Assembly: GCA_016927375.1 (NCBI GenBank) | Contig: JAFGMS010000021.1 | Coordinates: 1-32,941, forward strand | Reading direction: 5' to 3' | From: Anaerolineae bacterium | Lineage (GTDB): Bacteria > Chloroflexota > Anaerolineae > Aggregatilineales > UBA3940 | DNA length: 32,941 nucleotides | Part shown: piece after piece, positions 1,444 through 18,043 of the stretch | Layout of the letters: the number at the start of each line of letters is the position of its first letter | How positions within the stretch are numbered: the first letter of the stretch is position 1 | Position numbers and translations under genes: made by a program | Notes under the pieces: model-generated | The model's input: the letters and a program-made list of their open reading frames with translations, nothing else | What the model was told of the DNA's origin: nothing | The model's database searches: none

Positions 1444-2048
1444 TGCGCCTGGGGGTTCTGGGCGGTACCTTCGATCCGCCGCACTATGCACATCTGATCA
1501 TGGGCGAGTATGCGCGTGAGCAGCTTGAATTGGATCGTGTTTTGTGGGTTGTGGCGGCCGATCCACCACATAAGCAGCACGAGATTGTGTCCCCCGTTGA
1601 GCATCGTTTGCACATGGTGGAGATGGTGCTGGCCGATAACCTGGCCTTTGAGCTTTCGCGGGTGGATGTCGAGCGCCCTGGCCCGCATTACACCGTCGAT
1701 ATGTTGTTCCTGCTCAGTGCTCAATATCCTGACAGTGAGCTGTTCTTTCTGCTGGGGGGCGACTCTCTATGTAAGCTGCCGGACTGGCATGAACCTGCCC
1801 GGTTGGTTCAGCAGGCCAGGCTGGTTGTTATGGAGAGACCTGGTGTTGTGTGTGATATGACGAAAATGGCCTCACAGATTCCGGGGCTAAGCGATCGCGT
1901 CATCGTCGAGGATGCCCCTCTGATCGATATCTCAGCCTCCGATATTCGGGCCAGGGTGGCAAACAGGCAAACGATTCGTTATTTACTCCCAGCCGATGTT
2001 GAAACGTATATCCACGAGCAAGGGCTCTACCGGACCCTATCAGGATGA
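1443..2048 (+). CDS. nadD: Nicotinate-nucleotide adenylyltransferase
   Basis: MRLGVLGGTFDPPHYAHL nucleotidyltransferase motif and C-terminal ISASDIRAR. The obg stop and this start overlap (TGATG). The ORF track starts at 1431. Confidence 0.94.
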   Translation: MRLGVLGGTFDPPHYAHLIMGEYAREQLELDRVLWVVAADPPHKQHEIVSPVEHRLHMVEMVLADNLAFELSRVDVERPGPHYTVDMLFLLSAQYPDSELFFLLGGDSLCKLPDWHEPARLVQQARLVVMERPGVVCDMTKMASQIPGLSDRVIVEDAPLIDISASDIRARVANRQTIRYLLPADVETYIHEQGLYRTLSG

Positions 2049-2052
2049 TCGT

Positions 2053-3786
2053 ATGTTGAGACGCACTTCGCTTATTTCATGCATGGTGGTCACCATACTG
2101 GCGGGCTTGCAGGTGGCATGTACGAGAGAACCGCAGGGCACACCGACGCCAACCATCGTTCCGACGCGCAGTGTGACCAGCGTGCCGGTCGTGCATGGAA
2201 ACCCTGACGAGACGCCCCTTCCGCAGCCGGTCGCTGCTTCAGCCCTGGAGGACATCCGGCAAGCGGGCGAGCTTCGGGTTGGGATACTTTATAACTATTC
2301 TCCCTTCTGCTTTCTGGCTGATAATGGTGAGGTTCATGGCTATGAGGTGGCGCTGGTACGCCGCATCGCTGAGGAGTGGGGCGTCGAGGTGACCTTTGTG
2401 CAGGTCACCCGGCAGACTCGGCTGCCGATGCTGTACAGCGGCGAAGTAGATATGCTGGCAGCCGCCATGCCGCACCGGTGGGAGTTGGAGCAGTTTGTCG
2501 AGTTCTCCAATACGATCTTTCGAAGCGGCTATGTTGTTTTGATCTCTGCTGGTAGTGATATCGAAAGTATTGCAGGTATCGGCGGTGGTGCTGTGGCTGC
2601 TGTTGGTCCTGAAGCGCAAAGTGTGCTGATGGATTATGCGGCCCAGATTGGCATAGTCCCCTCGGTCCGGATTTCAGATACGGTCAATGATGCTGTCTCG
2701 GCGTTCAAGAATGGTGAAGTCAGTGCTATTACGGGACGTCGGGAAGATCTGATGTTGGCTGCAACCTCCCTTTCCAATGTTGAGATACTTGATGAGTTTG
2801 TCGTTGTCGAGCCCTATGCCTTTGCTGTGAGACGCGGCGATACCCCCCTGCGCGATCTGATCAATTTGACCCTTTTGGCAATCGCCGGAGGGGGTGATAT
2901 CGGTACTATTTTCTCTTCCAGCTTTTATGGTTATTCGGCCGATCTATTCCCGGTTTATCCTGGCGAGCCGGCTTATACTTTCGAGACCTTCCCGACCGAC
3001 TTGCCGGCCACAGAGTCTGTGGTTGAGCGTATCAGACGAGGCGAGCCTTTGAGAGTGGCCGGTCTGGCACTGGAAGCCCAACCGGGGCGCTTCGATGCTC
3101 AACCGATTGTCGATGGGTACAACCGTGCCATCATCAACGAGATGGCTCGCCGTTGGAATGCACCTGTCAGTGAGCTTCCTCAAAGTGCAGGTCGGGCGGG
3201 CATCGATCTGGTAGAGAGTGGTCAGGCCGATCTGGTGGTAGGTGTGCAGCCCGATCTTTCCCTGATCGGCCAGGTTGCCTTGAGCCAGGCTTATTACCAG
3301 CGGAGCCTGCGGCTGATCCACATGCAGAATGTAACGGTATTGGGCATTTACGATCTGGAGGCCAAAGAGTCGGTCGTCGTCGAGCCGCTGGCGCTGAGCG
3401 AGGATCTGATCAGAGATAATAACGATTTTCCCCGGGTGACACAGGCTGCTTCAGTTGAGGAGGCATTCAAGGCTCTGACTGCCGGCAGTGTCTATGCGGT
3501 AGTCGGTGATGAATTCAGCATGATGCTCATGATACAGACGGATGATCGTATCGAGGTGATCGGGGAGCGCTATCGACCCACCGACTATGCAATGGCTATG
3601 CCTTCCTATGATACCGAGTTGCAAGCGTTGGTGGACTTCACTCTACAAAACATGAAGCTGGATGGCACGCTGGATCGTCTACGTGAGCAGTACTTCAATC
3701 CGTATATGCCTGCCGATGATCCGCTTGAGCCTCTTGAGTTCGAAATCTGGCCGGGAGATGGGAGCTATCTTGGAGTAGGGGGGTAA
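2053..3786 (+). CDS. Lipoprotein with two tandem family-3 periplasmic solute-binding domains
   Basis: Signal peptide with lipobox (AGLQVAC). SBP_bac_3-like sequence appears twice (LEDIRQAGELRVGILYNYSPF... and VERIRRGEPLRVAGL...). Start refined from 1996. Confidence 0.8.
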   Translation: MLRRTSLISCMVVTILAGLQVACTREPQGTPTPTIVPTRSVTSVPVVHGNPDETPLPQPVAASALEDIRQAGELRVGILYNYSPFCFLADNGEVHGYEVALVRRIAEEWGVEVTFVQVTRQTRLPMLYSGEVDMLAAAMPHRWELEQFVEFSNTIFRSGYVVLISAGSDIESIAGIGGGAVAAVGPEAQSVLMDYAAQIGIVPSVRISDTVNDAVSAFKNGEVSAITGRREDLMLAATSLSNVEILDEFVVVEPYAFAVRRGDTPLRDLINLTLLAIAGGGDIGTIFSSSFYGYSADLFPVYPGEPAYTFETFPTDLPATESVVERIRRGEPLRVAGLALEAQPGRFDAQPIVDGYNRAIINEMARRWNAPVSELPQSAGRAGIDLVESGQADLVVGVQPDLSLIGQVALSQAYYQRSLRLIHMQNVTVLGIYDLEAKESVVVEPLALSEDLIRDNNDFPRVTQAASVEEAFKALTAGSVYAVVGDEFSMMLMIQTDDRIEVIGERYRPTDYAMAMPSYDTELQALVDFTLQNMKLDGTLDRLREQYFNPYMPADDPLEPLEFEIWPGDGSYLGVGG

Positions 3787-3797
3787 GATGCGCTAAA

Positions 3798-3872
3798 GCT
3801 GGACCTCCTCGTGATGCAGCTGGACCTTGTCGTGACGCAGCTGGACCTTGCCGTGACACGGCTGGACCTGAG
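3798..3872. repeat. 21-bp tandem repeat, about 3.6 copies
   Basis: Units at 3798-3818, 3819-3839 and 3840-3860, and partial 3861-3872, all beginning GCTGGACCT. Confidence 0.9.
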
Positions 3873-3951: not shown

Positions 3952-6501
3952 TCAGGCAGTTGTGAAATAGAGCGTCACAATCTCGGCCGGCTTTACCTGA
4001 AGGCGAAACTGCCCATGCGCATCCGGTTTGATCCTCTTTCCGATTGGCGTTTCATCAAGCCGTGTGCGATGTGCCTGGGTGGCCTGGATGCCCAGATTCA
4101 GTGAGACCTTCTCGACTTTGTTGCTGATGCTGTACCCTCTTACCACCAACCCTTCTCCTGTCAACGCAACTTTGACCGTTGTCAATACAAAAGCAGGGTT
4201 GTCCACCGTCACCAGGCTGTGTTCCGGCGGCAGAACACCGGGATGTCTGGTTGTGAGCAGCGCTCTCAGAGGTGTCTGAAAGGCCCAGGCCTGCTGCCAG
4301 GCGGGCAGGGCGTCCTGCCCATGGGGGATGAGGCTGTAGCTGAAATGATAGTTGCCTCGGCATTGAGCATCGGGGGTCTGGGTGGCAGGTGAGTTGTCGA
4401 GTTGCAGCCAGCCTACGCTGCGCAGCAGCGTCAGCGCAATCTCCACACCTTCATCCGTTATCAAGGCGGCGGCTTCAGCCAGCCCCTGGTTGGCGATAGT
4501 GAGCCCCGTGTCTGTGCCCAAAACGGTTACAAAAGCACGTTGTGGGTAGTCGCCAGGGACAGGACGGCTCACGATCTCATAGTGCCCATCAAACAGTACC
4601 TCTGAAGTTCTGATACCGGTTGGGAAGTGCACTCTAAGGCGATGATCCAGAGCGTTGTTGGAAATATGAACTTCCACATCTAAGCGAGGCACGCCAGGGA
4701 CTACCCTCAGAGTAGTTGTTATCGGGATAGGAACAAACTGGGCTGCTAAAGGCAGCCGGGCATCGCGCTGCGGGGTGAGCATCTGCGGCAGCCGGTATAT
4801 CTGAAGGTAGCTCATCTCCTGCTGCGTATTGCTGATGCGCCGCTCAACGTAAATAGGCGTATTGGTGGCAATATCGATCAGCGTGTCTCTCCGTGGCGGG
4901 CAATAGGCAGCTGCGTCACCACAATCTCCCCCATCGACGTAGCGGTTTAGTCCGGAGAATGTCCTACCTGTCAGCTTATCAAAGATGGTAAACGTCCCGT
5001 CTGAGGGTTCTACTGAGACACTCAGGTACTCATTCTTGATGGCTGGTATATCGTCAATCCGCATTTCTTCGGGAGACCCGGCAGCTGGTTGAAGACTGTA
5101 AGTTCGAAAACCGTATGCCGGGACATCCCGGACGAGGAATCTGGCATGATGGAATTGCGAGGTCTGGATTTCCTCGGCGCAGTCAATGTACTCGGTGGGC
5201 TGAGGGGTTCCTGTGCTGTCGACAATCTGGAAACGCCCATCTGCCAGGCTGGTAGGGATTTCAAACGTGGCAATACCGGTATGGGATTGTCCGGTTCCGT
5301 TAAAGACAATGACAAGGTGTTCGCTGTCTTCTACCGGAATACTGCTGGTGTCGATTTGGCTTGTCAGATACTGCAAGTTCTGTCCGGCGATCTCCGCTCC
5401 AACCTGTTCGGCTTGCTCAAAGCGAACCTGCATCTCGCGGTGAACCTGATCGATAGCATGACCCGAGATGGATAGATAGGCATGGTTGGGGAGGAGAAGC
5501 CGCCAGGCGTGTGTGACCAGCTCGTTGGGCTTCTGGAGCCATCTGTTATCCTGCATTGTATCTGCGTGGCCAATCAGGCTGGCCCAGGCACTGAAAGGCT
5601 CAGCCCAGTGCTCCAGGAGGTTTTCGATAGCATGATTGTGTTGTTTGATCCATATCCGCGTGCTGAATGTGCCTGCAGAAAACGACGCCGGGAGTATCTC
5701 ACCCTCGATGACCGGGAGATCGTTTGAGAGCTTCGAGATTGCTGCCAGGTAGCCAGGTAAATCGCCATGAACGACCTCGGCGCCACGTATCTGTCCTTGG
5801 ATGCTGACTATCAGCTCGGCTATATGCTCCGGAGCTTCTTGATATCTGCTGTCGGATAATATAGCCAATACCTGTGCCGCATTGCGCTTTTTGAGCCGGT
5901 TCTTGGCTCTCGTGAGGATTTTTGAGAATGCTTTGCTGTCTCCAGACAGCGATAGCAGATCAGATTCTTCAAGTAGGCATACCAGCAGAACCTTGTTGCC
6001 GTTCGGGGCAAACCACCACTGCTTAAGAGGGGTATCCGACTGAGTATCATCAATGACAGATGCGATCTCCAGACCAAAGCCGGCCAGGATCTGGGGCATT
6101 TGCCCGATGTGGGCCGTTATGTTCGACACGTGTCCAATGTCAATCTGCCCACCCAGATGTCTGGTTGTTTCTGAGCCCAAGAGAAGGTTGCGTATGAGAG
6201 CCTCTGGACTGCTCAGAAACTCGTTGGGCAGAATATACCAGGGACCGATGTGGAGCCGTCCCCCCTGGATGAGTTCGGCAATCATATCCCGGTATTCAGG
6301 CCGGACTTCCAGATAATCTTCGACGAGAATGCTCTGGCCGTCTAAGACGAAACTATCGAACGCGTTCTGAGTAGCAAGAGCGGATAGGACGCAGTCCAGA
6401 AACTGCACCAGGCCCAGACGCAACTCCTGGAACGTGCGTAATCCCTCTCTGTGCCACAGTGTATGTGAAATAACATGGAGCCTGAGACTCGATTTTCCCA
6501 T
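3952..6501 (-). CDS. Glycoside hydrolase family 38-like protein, catalytic residues apparently lost
   Basis: Family-type stretches: FVLDGQSILVEDYLEVRPEYRDMIAELIQGGRLHIGPWYILPNEFL, GQMPQILAGFG, STRIWIKQHNHAIENLLEHWAEPFSA, IDQVHREM. Confidence 0.82.
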   Translation of the reverse strand: MGKSSLRLHVISHTLWHREGLRTFQELRLGLVQFLDCVLSALATQNAFDSFVLDGQSILVEDYLEVRPEYRDMIAELIQGGRLHIGPWYILPNEFLSSPEALIRNLLLGSETTRHLGGQIDIGHVSNITAHIGQMPQILAGFGLEIASVIDDTQSDTPLKQWWFAPNGNKVLLVCLLEESDLLSLSGDSKAFSKILTRAKNRLKKRNAAQVLAILSDSRYQEAPEHIAELIVSIQGQIRGAEVVHGDLPGYLAAISKLSNDLPVIEGEILPASFSAGTFSTRIWIKQHNHAIENLLEHWAEPFSAWASLIGHADTMQDNRWLQKPNELVTHAWRLLLPNHAYLSISGHAIDQVHREMQVRFEQAEQVGAEIAGQNLQYLTSQIDTSSIPVEDSEHLVIVFNGTGQSHTGIATFEIPTSLADGRFQIVDSTGTPQPTEYIDCAEEIQTSQFHHARFLVRDVPAYGFRTYSLQPAAGSPEEMRIDDIPAIKNEYLSVSVEPSDGTFTIFDKLTGRTFSGLNRYVDGGDCGDAAAYCPPRRDTLIDIATNTPIYVERRISNTQQEMSYLQIYRLPQMLTPQRDARLPLAAQFVPIPITTTLRVVPGVPRLDVEVHISNNALDHRLRVHFPTGIRTSEVLFDGHYEIVSRPVPGDYPQRAFVTVLGTDTGLTIANQGLAEAAALITDEGVEIALTLLRSVGWLQLDNSPATQTPDAQCRGNYHFSYSLIPHGQDALPAWQQAWAFQTPLRALLTTRHPGVLPPEHSLVTVDNPAFVLTTVKVALTGEGLVVRGYSISNKVEKVSLNLGIQATQAHRTRLDETPIGKRIKPDAHGQFRLQVKPAEIVTLYFTTA

Positions 6502-6512
6502 CGGCCAGTATT

Positions 6513-6752
6513 TTATGCCTCTTGGTCTGGGGGTGTAGATTCTGTTTTCGACTCAGGCTCAGCCGGTTCTGTTGCAGCGCGTGGAAGCGCTTGTTTGAGT
6601 TGTTTGCGAGTGACCTTGTTGATACGCCTGCACTTTGGACATTCAATGGCGTAGTAGTTTTCGTCAGGGGCTAGCGAATCGAGGGCGGCCTTGACATCTT
6701 TCGACCCCAGCGACCAACTCCAGTGACACTTGAAACAGGTGATCTTTACCAT
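6513..6752 (-). CDS. Small zinc-ribbon protein
   Basis: CFKC...CPKC cysteine pairs in a 79-aa ORF immediately upstream of the GH38-like gene on the same strand. Confidence 0.6.
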   Translation of the reverse strand: MVKITCFKCHWSWSLGSKDVKAALDSLAPDENYYAIECPKCRRINKVTRKQLKQALPRAATEPAEPESKTESTPPDQEA

Positions 6753-6806: not shown

Positions 6807-7706
6807 TCATTGTCTGTTTACTTGTTGTTCAGCTAATGATGCTGACGCGATTCCTGCTAAGGTGAATGCTCCTCCCAGAATCTGAAGAGGAGAACCGGGT
6901 AACTCTTCCAGCAATAGAGCAGCGAGTATTGTTGAGCCAATTGGCTCGCCCAGAATAGTGATGCTCACAAGTGTTGCTGAAAGGTAGCGAACTGCGTAGT
7001 TGGCGGAGCCATGCCCGATGAGTTGTGGCACTATTCCAAGGGTGAGCATACAGATTGTGGCTGCTAACGAGTAACCTGCCAGTGGCAGACGGTTAACTAC
7101 TACCCACACTAGCAACAACAAGGCTGCTGTGCCATAGACCAGCCACAAGTATGAAATCAGCCGTACACTGGTACGCAGTCTCCGGCCAACGATAAGGTAT
7201 CCAGATCCGAACATAGCCCCCAACAGTGCCAGACCGTTACCTTCGAGAGTCTGTATCTGTGTGCTTTTCAAACCTGATAGTCCTATGATGCTTGCCCCGA
7301 TCATGGCAACGACGAGGCTGAGCCACATCAGTCTGGGAATACGCTCGCCCAGGAAAAGTGGTGAGGCTAGACCGATCCACAGGGGCGTTGTTGTTACCAG
7401 GACGACTGAATTCATGACTGATGTATAGGTCAAAGACGTGATCCAGGCTGCAAAGTGAAGTCCCAGCAGCACACCACTCATCAGGATCAGGACAATAGTC
7501 TGCCTATCCAGTTTAGCATACTCTCGCCAACCACGCTGCTGGATCATGGAAAAGCTTAAAATGCCTGTGGCTGTTGCAAGTCGATACGCTGCGATGACCA
7601 ACGACGGGACTCCTTCATTTTGGGCCCAACGAACGAGAATGGAGGCGGAGGACATTGCCAGTACTCCACTGGTCAAGATCAGGCTAAGTTTGATATGTTG
7701 GTTCAC
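6807..7706 (-). CDS. EamA/DMT-superfamily transporter
   Basis: About 10 hydrophobic segments, duplicated EamA pattern, C-terminal LGEPIGSTILAALLLEE. Confidence 0.85.
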   Translation of the reverse strand: MNQHIKLSLILTSGVLAMSSASILVRWAQNEGVPSLVIAAYRLATATGILSFSMIQQRGWREYAKLDRQTIVLILMSGVLLGLHFAAWITSLTYTSVMNSVVLVTTTPLWIGLASPLFLGERIPRLMWLSLVVAMIGASIIGLSGLKSTQIQTLEGNGLALLGAMFGSGYLIVGRRLRTSVRLISYLWLVYGTAALLLLVWVVVNRLPLAGYSLAATICMLTLGIVPQLIGHGSANYAVRYLSATLVSITILGEPIGSTILAALLLEELPGSPLQILGGAFTLAGIASASLAEQQVNRQ

Positions 7707-15956: not shown

Positions 15957-16030
15957 CCGGTCGACTTGGAGTCTAGGTATAGATGTGCTATAACCGAAGT
16001 GATGTTGTAGAGAGTATTGGAGAGTATCGA

Positions 16031-18043
16031 ATGGATGAGACGGACGCGCTTATTGGTTCTTCTCTTGGCAAGTACCATGTCGTTGAGATGTTGGGCAAGG
16101 GAGGGATGGCAACGGTTTACAAAGCTACTCACGTGGCCATCAACCGTACTGTTGCGATCAAGGTACTTCCGAGAGCGATGCTGCATGATGACACCTTTAT
16201 GCAGCGTTTCCAGCGTGAAGCTGAAGTCATTGCGAAGTTAGAGCATTTCCATATATTGCCCATCTATGATTATGGGGAATATGATGGGATGCCCTATATC
16301 GTGATGCGCTTTCTTGAGGGAGGCTCACTCCAAGAGCTCATCCGGGAGGGACCACTTTCGTGGGGGCAAATCGTAGGTGTTGTCTCGCAGGTGGCCGGTG
16401 CACTGGATTATGCTCACTCTCGGAGTGTGATTCATCGTGATATCAAGCCCAGCAATGTCATGCTGGATGATCAGGGCAATGCCTATCTGACCGATTTTGG
16501 GATCGCTAAGATGACTGAAGGCACCTCTCAGTTGACAGGTAGCGGCATTGTCGGCACGCCCGCCTATATGGCTCCCGAGCAATCGAACCCCGGACCGTCG
16601 ACCCCGGCTGTGGACATCTATGCCTTGGGCGTGACTGTTTTCGAGATGATCACCGGGCAGGTGCCCTTTGTTGCCGATACACCGATCGCCCAGATACTGA
16701 TGCATATTCAGAATCCTGTGCCGTCACTGCGTGATTATAATCCCGATATTCCCGACGAAGTAGACGAAGTTCTTCATCATGCTATGGAGAAGAAGCCGGA
16801 GGATCGCTATCACACAGCCGGAGAGCTGGCACAAGGGCTCGAGGCTGCCGTCAAGGCTGCCGGTGGCTGGAGCTGGTCATCCAAGACGGTAGTCCATTCT
16901 GTCCAGACCTTGCAGGCGGCAGTGTCGCCGAGAGCTGATGCGGCTACGGGCGAGGTGTCAGCCGGTGTAGGTGTGGCTTCTGTGAAACCGGCGCGCTCCA
17001 AATCCTTTCTCTCGAATCGGGCCTTGCTGTGGGCTGGGGTGGGGGGGGTTGGAATAGTGCTTGTAGTGGCAGCCATCGTGGTAGTGAGCCTTTTGGGAAG
17101 AGGTCTTGGTGGTCCTGACGTAGTGGCAGATCAAACAGCGACGGCTGACCAGGTCGCAATAGCTGACATTCCGGAGACTCTACCTGCCGCTGCGGCCACC
17201 GACATGGTGGAACCTACCTCTGATGTGATTGCTGTGACCGATAGTCAGGTGACAACGCCTCCGGAGCTCCCTACAACGACTCTTGTCCCAACTGATTTCC
17301 CGACTACGACGACATTACGCGGGGTTCCCATGATGTTGATCCCTGCCGGTTCGTCTATCATGGGCAGCGATACCGGCTACCCGCGTGAGCGTCCTGCTCA
17401 TGAAATCTATCTGGATGCTTATTACATCGATACAACAGAGGTCACCAATCTGTACTATATCGCCTGTGTTGATGAGGGTGCTTGTAAAGAGCCGCTGGAC
17501 GATAATTCGGTCAGCATTTACCGTTACTATGGAACGGAGCCCTATCACGACTATCCGGTTATCAACATTTCCTGGTATCAGGCTTATGATTACTGTCAGT
17601 GGCGGGGAGGCCATCTGCCCACTGAAGCTCAGTGGGAGAAAGCGGCTGGTTGGGACGAGGCCAATAACAAGCACCGGCTGTTTCCCTGGGACTCGGAATT
17701 GAAGAATAGCAGTTACCTGAATTTCGGCAGCGAGATAGGTGATCCTGTTGCAGTAGGTACCTACACAAAGGGGATGAGTGCCTACGGGTTGTATGAGATG
17801 GCAGGCAATGTGGCAGAGTGGGTTAATGACTGGTATCAAGATAATTTTTACGAGCTGTCTCCCAGGGAGAACCCGGTTGGCCCTGCTGAGGGGCAGTATA
17901 AAATCACACGGGGTGGCAGTTACGATGATCCTGGGGCACAGTTGACGACTACCTTCCGGCAGGCCGTTGGCCCGGCTACTACTGCTGATACGATAGGCTT
18001 CCGCTGTGCGTGGACACCAGCGGGAGATCCGACTGCTGAATAA
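16031..18043 (+). CDS. Ser/Thr protein kinase with TM segment and extracytoplasmic SUMF1/FGE-like domain
   Basis: Kinase motifs GKGGMATVY, VAIK, HRDIKPSN, TDFGIAK, APE; TM LLWAGVGGVGIVLVVAAIVVVSLL; SUMF1-like MMLIPAGSSIMGSD...GGHLPTEAQWEKAA...MAGNVAEWVNDWY...RGGSY...GFRCA. Confidence 0.93.
   Translation: MDETDALIGSSLGKYHVVEMLGKGGMATVYKATHVAINRTVAIKVLPRAMLHDDTFMQRFQREAEVIAKLEHFHILPIYDYGEYDGMPYIVMRFLEGGSLQELIREGPLSWGQIVGVVSQVAGALDYAHSRSVIHRDIKPSNVMLDDQGNAYLTDFGIAKMTEGTSQLTGSGIVGTPAYMAPEQSNPGPSTPAVDIYALGVTVFEMITGQVPFVADTPIAQILMHIQNPVPSLRDYNPDIPDEVDEVLHHAMEKKPEDRYHTAGELAQGLEAAVKAAGGWSWSSKTVVHSVQTLQAAVSPRADAATGEVSAGVGVASVKPARSKSFLSNRALLWAGVGGVGIVLVVAAIVVVSLLGRGLGGPDVVADQTATADQVAIADIPETLPAAAATDMVEPTSDVIAVTDSQVTTPPELPTTTLVPTDFPTTTTLRGVPMMLIPAGSSIMGSDTGYPRERPAHEIYLDAYYIDTTEVTNLYYIACVDEGACKEPLDDNSVSIYRYYGTEPYHDYPVINISWYQAYDYCQWRGGHLPTEAQWEKAAGWDEANNKHRLFPWDSELKNSSYLNFGSEIGDPVAVGTYTKGMSAYGLYEMAGNVAEWVNDWYQDNFYELSPRENPVGPAEGQYKITRGGSYDDPGAQLTTTFRQAVGPATTADTIGFRCAWTPAGDPTAE

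Follow-up and report, generated by a model that had tools for sequence, protein, structure and literature searches.

Bacterial pseudoenzymes, and large multidomain glycosidases among them in particular, have to our knowledge been scantly documented. In the literature searched, no report of a GH38 pseudoenzyme was found, which does not prove that none exists. The active site of the canonical family can be described from SpGH38, an alpha-mannosidase of Streptococcus pyogenes, in which H13, D15, D125, and H351 are the metal ligands, D125 is also the equivalent of the nucleophile and D232 that of the acid/base, and W18, F127, Y192, D352, and Y574 are further residues of the pocket; W18, F127, D352, and Y574 are those described around swainsonine (PMC2815779). 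In another glycosidase family, Klotho is a non-enzymatic scaffold (PMC10628560).

The window considered here, a stretch of 32,941 nucleotides from a member of the Anaerolineae (Chloroflexota), encodes a protein, termed GH38L below, that belongs to the GH38 family by sequence and that, by the catalytic features defining the family, appears to be no GH38 enzyme. The reading favored, with a probability of roughly 55% as a whole, is that GH38L is a pseudoglycosidase: already in an ancestor of the GH38L lineage the barrel would have given up metal binding and catalysis, and the C-terminal beta-sandwich would have become the seat of a role in binding or as a scaffold.

Domain organization of GH38L

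The gene and its principal domains are as follows.

3952 to 6501, minus strand: GH38L, a putative pseudo-GH38 protein of 849 aa
5731 to 6480, minus strand: GH38N barrel (Pfam and active-site mapping), its catalytic machinery apparently gone
4408 to 5040, minus strand: GH38C beta-sandwich, the most constrained domain (dN/dS about 0.04; 45-79% identity to family members) and proposed seat of the present function
3970 to 4191, minus strand: GH38C2 sandwich (Pfam), retained even in forms of about 400 aa, with K777, R788, and E817 invariant

The frame is open across all 849 codons, and Pfam places four GH38 domains in the expected order, all above their gathering scores (E-values of 1.5e-10 for 38N, 1.3e-9 for mid, 1e-6 for 38C, and 1.6e-13 for 38C2). 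In a search of the PDB, 3lvt matches almost end to end at 2e-92 and SpGH38 (2wyh) matches at 3e-83, again with homology over the full length. By fold homology, that is, by the four ordered domains and the full-length structural match, GH38L is a member of the GH38 sequence family, as had been proposed in a sequence-only reading of this DNA. The NCBIfam model for mannosylglycerate hydrolase (PRK09819) matches at 1e-86 with 291 bits, and the cut-off of that model, 1138, is far higher. An AF2 prediction made from two sequences, GH38L and the ortholog from its congener (L066), gave a pLDDT of 32, too low for a usable model. No signal peptide was seen by eye in GH38L.

Loss of the active site

GH38L was mapped onto SpGH38 (the 2wyh chain) by HMMER alignment, which is least certain at Y192, D232, and Y574; R149 of SpGH38 falls in an alignment gap and was left out. 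The sites concerned are the following, the first two placed by alignment and translation and the others by alignment, that of R219 to the 2wyh chain.

6442 to 6465, minus strand: HTLWHREG, with L15 and H17 in place of the ligands His and Asp and G20 in place of the stacking Trp
6091 to 6126, minus strand: SNITAHIGQMPQ, with N127 (codon 6121-6123) in place of the Asp that is both nucleophile and ligand, and T129 in place of Phe
5845 to 5847, minus strand: R219 in place of the acid/base Asp
5458 to 5487, minus strand: NHAYLSISGH, with Y342 in place of the ligand His and L343 in place of Asp

All 10 of the mapped active-site residues are replaced. The four ligands H, D, D, and H become L15 (for H13), H17 (D15), N127 (D125), and Y342 (H351), the substitution at D125 removing the Asp nucleophile as well; D232 becomes R219, at one of the less certain positions of the alignment, so that no Asp stands at the acid/base site; and W18, F127, Y192, D352, and Y574 become G20, T129, S180, L343, and A531, respectively. 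The sequence-only reading had quoted the three motifs with the changes at the metal ligands and the nucleophile, all of which hold up on translation and alignment, and had understated the extent of the loss, having missed the acid/base and four extra pocket residues.

Among 32 canonical relatives, nine of the 10 pocket columns show no variation in the rows that cover them, and the tenth holds either Y or W; the rows read H,D,W,D,F,Y,D,H,D,Y, with W at the last position in five of them. No intermediate active site occurs in the set compared; each row either is canonical throughout or has degraded residues at most of the sites. In the six family sequences complete enough to cover the site, active-site invariants are kept at 5 of 53 positions as against 299 of 375 for other canonical invariants (Fisher p = 6e-24), so the loss of the active site is not due to chance. 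By its aligned residues, GH38L lacks the catalytic residues of its homologous glycosidase family, one of the marks by which a pseudoglycosidase is recognized.

Orthologs and the age of the loss

Three neighboring genes define the setting in which GH38L is found.

1996 to 3786, plus strand: two-module SBP_bac_3 protein (SBP3; Pfam, synteny), convergent with GH38L and marking, with obg-nadD, the conserved locus
6513 to 6752, minus strand: ZnR, a zinc-ribbon-like protein of 79 aa with two CxxC motifs, a recurrent neighbor, 11 bp upstream of GH38L
6807 to 7706, minus strand: EamA/DMT transporter, possibly of the same operon, 54 bp upstream of ZnR on the same strand

The GH38L gene is present in eight of nine genomes of the window family, spanning seven genera; two of these eight sequences are partial, at contig ends. 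Gene order is conserved as obg-nadD-SBP3, convergent with GH38L-ZnR-EamA-SOD. SBP3 adjoins GH38L in all eight genomes carrying it, obg-nadD lying beyond SBP3 wherever that side can be seen, and the other flank of GH38L holds ZnR and/or EamA (then SOD and Fer4) where the contig reaches. The SBP3 protein itself, a single chain of 596 aa, combines two binding modules, and its position next to nadD is conserved throughout the family. In the window, the interval separating the convergent genes for SBP3 and GH38L contains, at 3797-3869, a 21-bp unit (AGCTGGACCTTGTCGTGACGC) repeated in tandem 3.5 times, no exact copy of which occurs in any compared locus outside the window genome.

Five family orthologs besides GH38L reach the active site. 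All five are degraded, and the replacements differ from one to the next: the four ligand positions hold, for example, L/D/S/I in the congener, R/D/E/A in G003, and H/P/H/A in G002. Orthologs sharing the substitutions of GH38L, for which the sequence-only reading had proposed a search, were thus not what the search returned. Nor were close orthologs with intact motifs, which by that reading would imply a recent lesion: intact GH38 relatives were found only outside the window family, the nearest match there (L137, in G331) being an intact enzyme at 39% identity. No internal stop occurs in the GH38L frames of any clade member. The degraded state of GH38L is ancient and has been inherited vertically in a fixed locus; neither a recent lesion nor decay accounts for it. 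Sequencing error and chimerism were also considered as sources of the substitutions and are ruled out by the independent orthologs.

No second GH38 that might act as an active paralogous partner was found in the window genome, which is 87% complete. Among the family genomes a canonical-looking GH38 is seen only in G007, and extra matches in G002 and G006 appear GH57-like by eye. As the SBP3 marker likewise has no good match in G007, loss of GH38L and a missing region are indistinguishable there. Many of the genomes compared are incomplete MAGs, so that absences are soft, and gene starts at the related loci were taken from a simple ORF caller.

Selection and the location of constraint

Relative to the congener, dN/dS of GH38L is 0.114 (Nei-Gojobori), like that of nine neighboring genes (0.058-0.18; dS of ZnR is saturated); with dS of 1.2-3.0, near saturation, these values are comparable between genes and rough in absolute terms. 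As the frames are open in all orthologs and dN/dS is this low, GH38L is an intact gene under purifying selection, a further mark of a pseudoglycosidase. The proposal that selection maintains a non-hydrolytic role, made earlier from the sequence, is supported by these values together with the syntenic orthologs in eight genomes, all degraded wherever the site is present. Slow decay of a dispensable gene would find some encouragement in the eroded barrels of G004 and G005 and in the disappearance of GH38C from relatives in families f7 and f2 of the order; it is hardly credible for a clade with stop-free frames, a dN/dS of 0.11, and family-specific invariants gained.

Within the family, pairwise identity is 0.147 in the pocket, 0.442 in the background (P = 0.0006), and 0.714 at the other canonical invariants. 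Judged from these alignments, the pocket appears to have been released from constraint, to rank now among the most variable parts of the protein, and not to have been rebuilt. Such variability is evidence against a rebuilt metal site, a conserved sugar sensor, and altered chemistry. That the barrel houses a new, metal-independent active site, which would be altered chemistry of the kind allowed for in the sequence-only reading, now looks highly improbable: no set of replacements in the old pocket is common to any two genera, and the congener has D and S at the positions of H17 and N127, while the conserved polar residues gained in GH38C could be catalytic, though in another domain. A sensor or lectin for glycans or small molecules that uses the old -1 subsite without hydrolysis, like the chitinase-like proteins, would accord with the glycan binding that known pseudoglycosidases often retain (PMC7828330) and with the framework residues kept around the cleft (P87, E100, Q137, E301, and W333). 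It is nevertheless quite unlikely, given that the pocket residues lost, with differing replacements between genera, include the equivalents of W18, F127, D352, and Y574 and that the barrel shows no new invariants.

Constraint has shifted toward GH38C. By domain, dN/dS of GH38L is 0.039 for GH38C, 0.116 for the helical domain, and 0.141 for the barrel. The barrel is more conserved than GH38C in 450 of 465 pairs of canonical enzymes (mean difference +0.09) and in none of 15 family pairs (mean difference -0.22), the two ranges of differences being disjoint. Residues invariant in the family and rare (<15%) in canonical enzymes occupy 14 of 283 columns in 488-770 as compared with none of 325 barrel and helical-domain columns (Fisher p = 2e-5); two more, G409 and D483, lie in the linker. 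The partial sequences add rows only in the C-terminal half, where invariance is therefore harder to reach, so this bias runs against the enrichment in 488-770. The principal groups are these.

4729 to 4965, minus strand: R513, R538, T540, N547, R554, I568, and Q588-F589-x-P591, with a conserved 3-aa insertion in LPLAAQFVP
4276 to 4299, minus strand: W735, W739, and Q742 (comparison of family with canonical columns)

According to the pseudoglycosidase reading, the barrel of GH38L would be dead and would now serve mainly as structural framework, with purifying selection acting on the remainder, GH38C above all, and on its gained Arg/Asn/Gln/Trp-rich invariant set. The shift of constraint points to a candidate site in GH38C through which GH38L would most likely work by binding, be it to a ligand (charged or glycan) or to another protein; a set rich in Arg, Asn, Gln, and Trp would suit such a ligand as well as it would a protein interface and so does not choose between them. 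GH38L may act as a scaffold or adaptor, presumably in the cytosol.

The zinc-ribbon neighbor

The short intervals separating EamA, ZnR, and GH38L fit one transcript, and the three genes are probably cotranscribed. The adjacency of a small zinc-ribbon gene, remarked on in the sequence-only reading, reflects a real, recurrent association that is not obligate. Among the 13 genomes of the order that carry ZnR, 10 have it directly upstream of a degraded GH38, and in f7 the ZnR-GH38L pair has varied flanks (ferrochelatase, Ser/Thr kinase, histidine kinase, EamA-SOD, and TIR-NACHT), so that the association exceeds the synteny of a single block. ZnR is missing from G020, G030, G039, G066, and G097, all of which have GH38L, and f5, f6, and much of the class carry ZnR without GH38L, the ZnR gene often adjoining nadD/obg there. 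Outside the order, in G157, ZnR stands directly upstream of a fully intact GH38 (L117), which suggests that the ZnR-GH38 neighborhood may predate the catalytic loss. A functional, non-obligate link between ZnR and GH38L is plausible.

These patterns bear on a further explanation, in which the barrel remnant is a docking platform for the adjacent ZnR, possibly with EamA or a regulator. The frequent upstream position, the varied flanks, and the adjacency to an intact GH38 in another order all speak for it, as does the observation that G004 and G005, without ZnR, show the most eroded barrels. The occurrence of each gene without the other, and a barrel less conserved than GH38C within the family, leave it unlikely, with a modest chance of being correct.

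Pfam assigns no family above cut-off to the window ZnR, giving only weak and conflicting zinc-ribbon matches. The ZnR family (CxxC...CPKCRR; the window gene and L118-L136) is matched in 117 of the 396 genomes sampled from the class, and nadD/obg or EamA is often adjacent. A TIR-NACHT-HEAT protein, possibly a defense gene (L071:9189-11660), lies near the ZnR-GH38L pair in G152. Elsewhere in the window, at 15983-18043, a Ser/Thr protein kinase is fused to a formylglycine-generating-enzyme (sulfatase-modifying factor) domain.

Shortened relatives and a second degraded group

Shorter relatives, of 393-585 aa, occur in f7 and in two f2 genomes, G066 and G097; they retain the barrel and the last sandwich, and GH38C is mostly or wholly missing from them. 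The shortest forms, predicted pseudo-GH38s of about 400-460 aa with a barrel remnant, the last beta-sandwich, and GH38C deleted, and the second group are as follows.

L040:8924-10270, L041:2897-4228, L043:8829-10082, L044:9020-10300, L070:7766-9151, L072:7736-9073, and L112:3768-4949: shrunken pseudo-GH38s
L039, L097-L102, and L104-L107: clade B, GH38 homologs with degraded sites in family f2 of the order

In a tree of GH38 homologs built without the ten active-site positions, the window family, f7, and two f2 rows form clade A (17 rows, SH-aLRT 94), and 11 degraded f2 rows form clade B (support 100). The AU test does not reject a topology uniting every degraded row in one clade (p = 0.48), and clade B possibly represents an independent loss of catalysis. 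Shortened relatives L072, L112, and the partial L109 are still at a window-type locus, and L108 is beside SOD-EamA; this shared locus supports orthology beyond the tree. Clade B members are not at the obg-nadD locus within the stretches seen. A PspA/IM30 gene neighbors the shrunken protein in L041.

A function in GH38C cannot hold for the whole clade, as the f7 and f2 relatives have lost that domain altogether. Tentatively, and with some doubt, one dead fold may have given rise to two non-enzymatic proteins at one locus, the window family having moved function to the sandwich, with a new ligand or partner site, and its sisters having dropped the sandwich and retained a zinc-ribbon partner alongside the barrel and terminal domain.

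Comparison with known systems

Together these proteins form a phylogenetic series, from an intact enzyme beside ZnR in another order to a full-length, apparently dead protein in one family and a domain-stripped one in another, which makes testable how a glycosidase gets reused and which domain bears the new function. They also carry a warning for annotation: as Pfam places GH38L above the GH38 cut-off, genome tools would score an alpha-mannosidase in carbohydrate-degradation profiles.

SpGH38 (2wyh) and 3lvt have the domain order of GH38L and are homologous to it over the full length; compared with SpGH38, GH38L has every mapped metal, nucleophile, acid/base, and -1 subsite residue replaced. 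Mannosylglycerate hydrolase (PRK09819) is its best curated family match, from which it differs in falling below the cut-off and apparently lacking the catalytic residues. The intact GH38s of other Anaerolineae lineages, L117 and L137, have fully canonical active sites, unlike GH38L, and L117 shares with it a ZnR gene directly upstream. The nearest parallels in outcome are Klotho (GH1), YKL-39 (GH18), and CyRPA (GH33), in which, as proposed for GH38L, catalytic residues are lost and the fold is kept for binding or scaffolding; these proteins belong to other glycosidase families, none of them GH38, and come from animals and a protozoan (PMC7828330).
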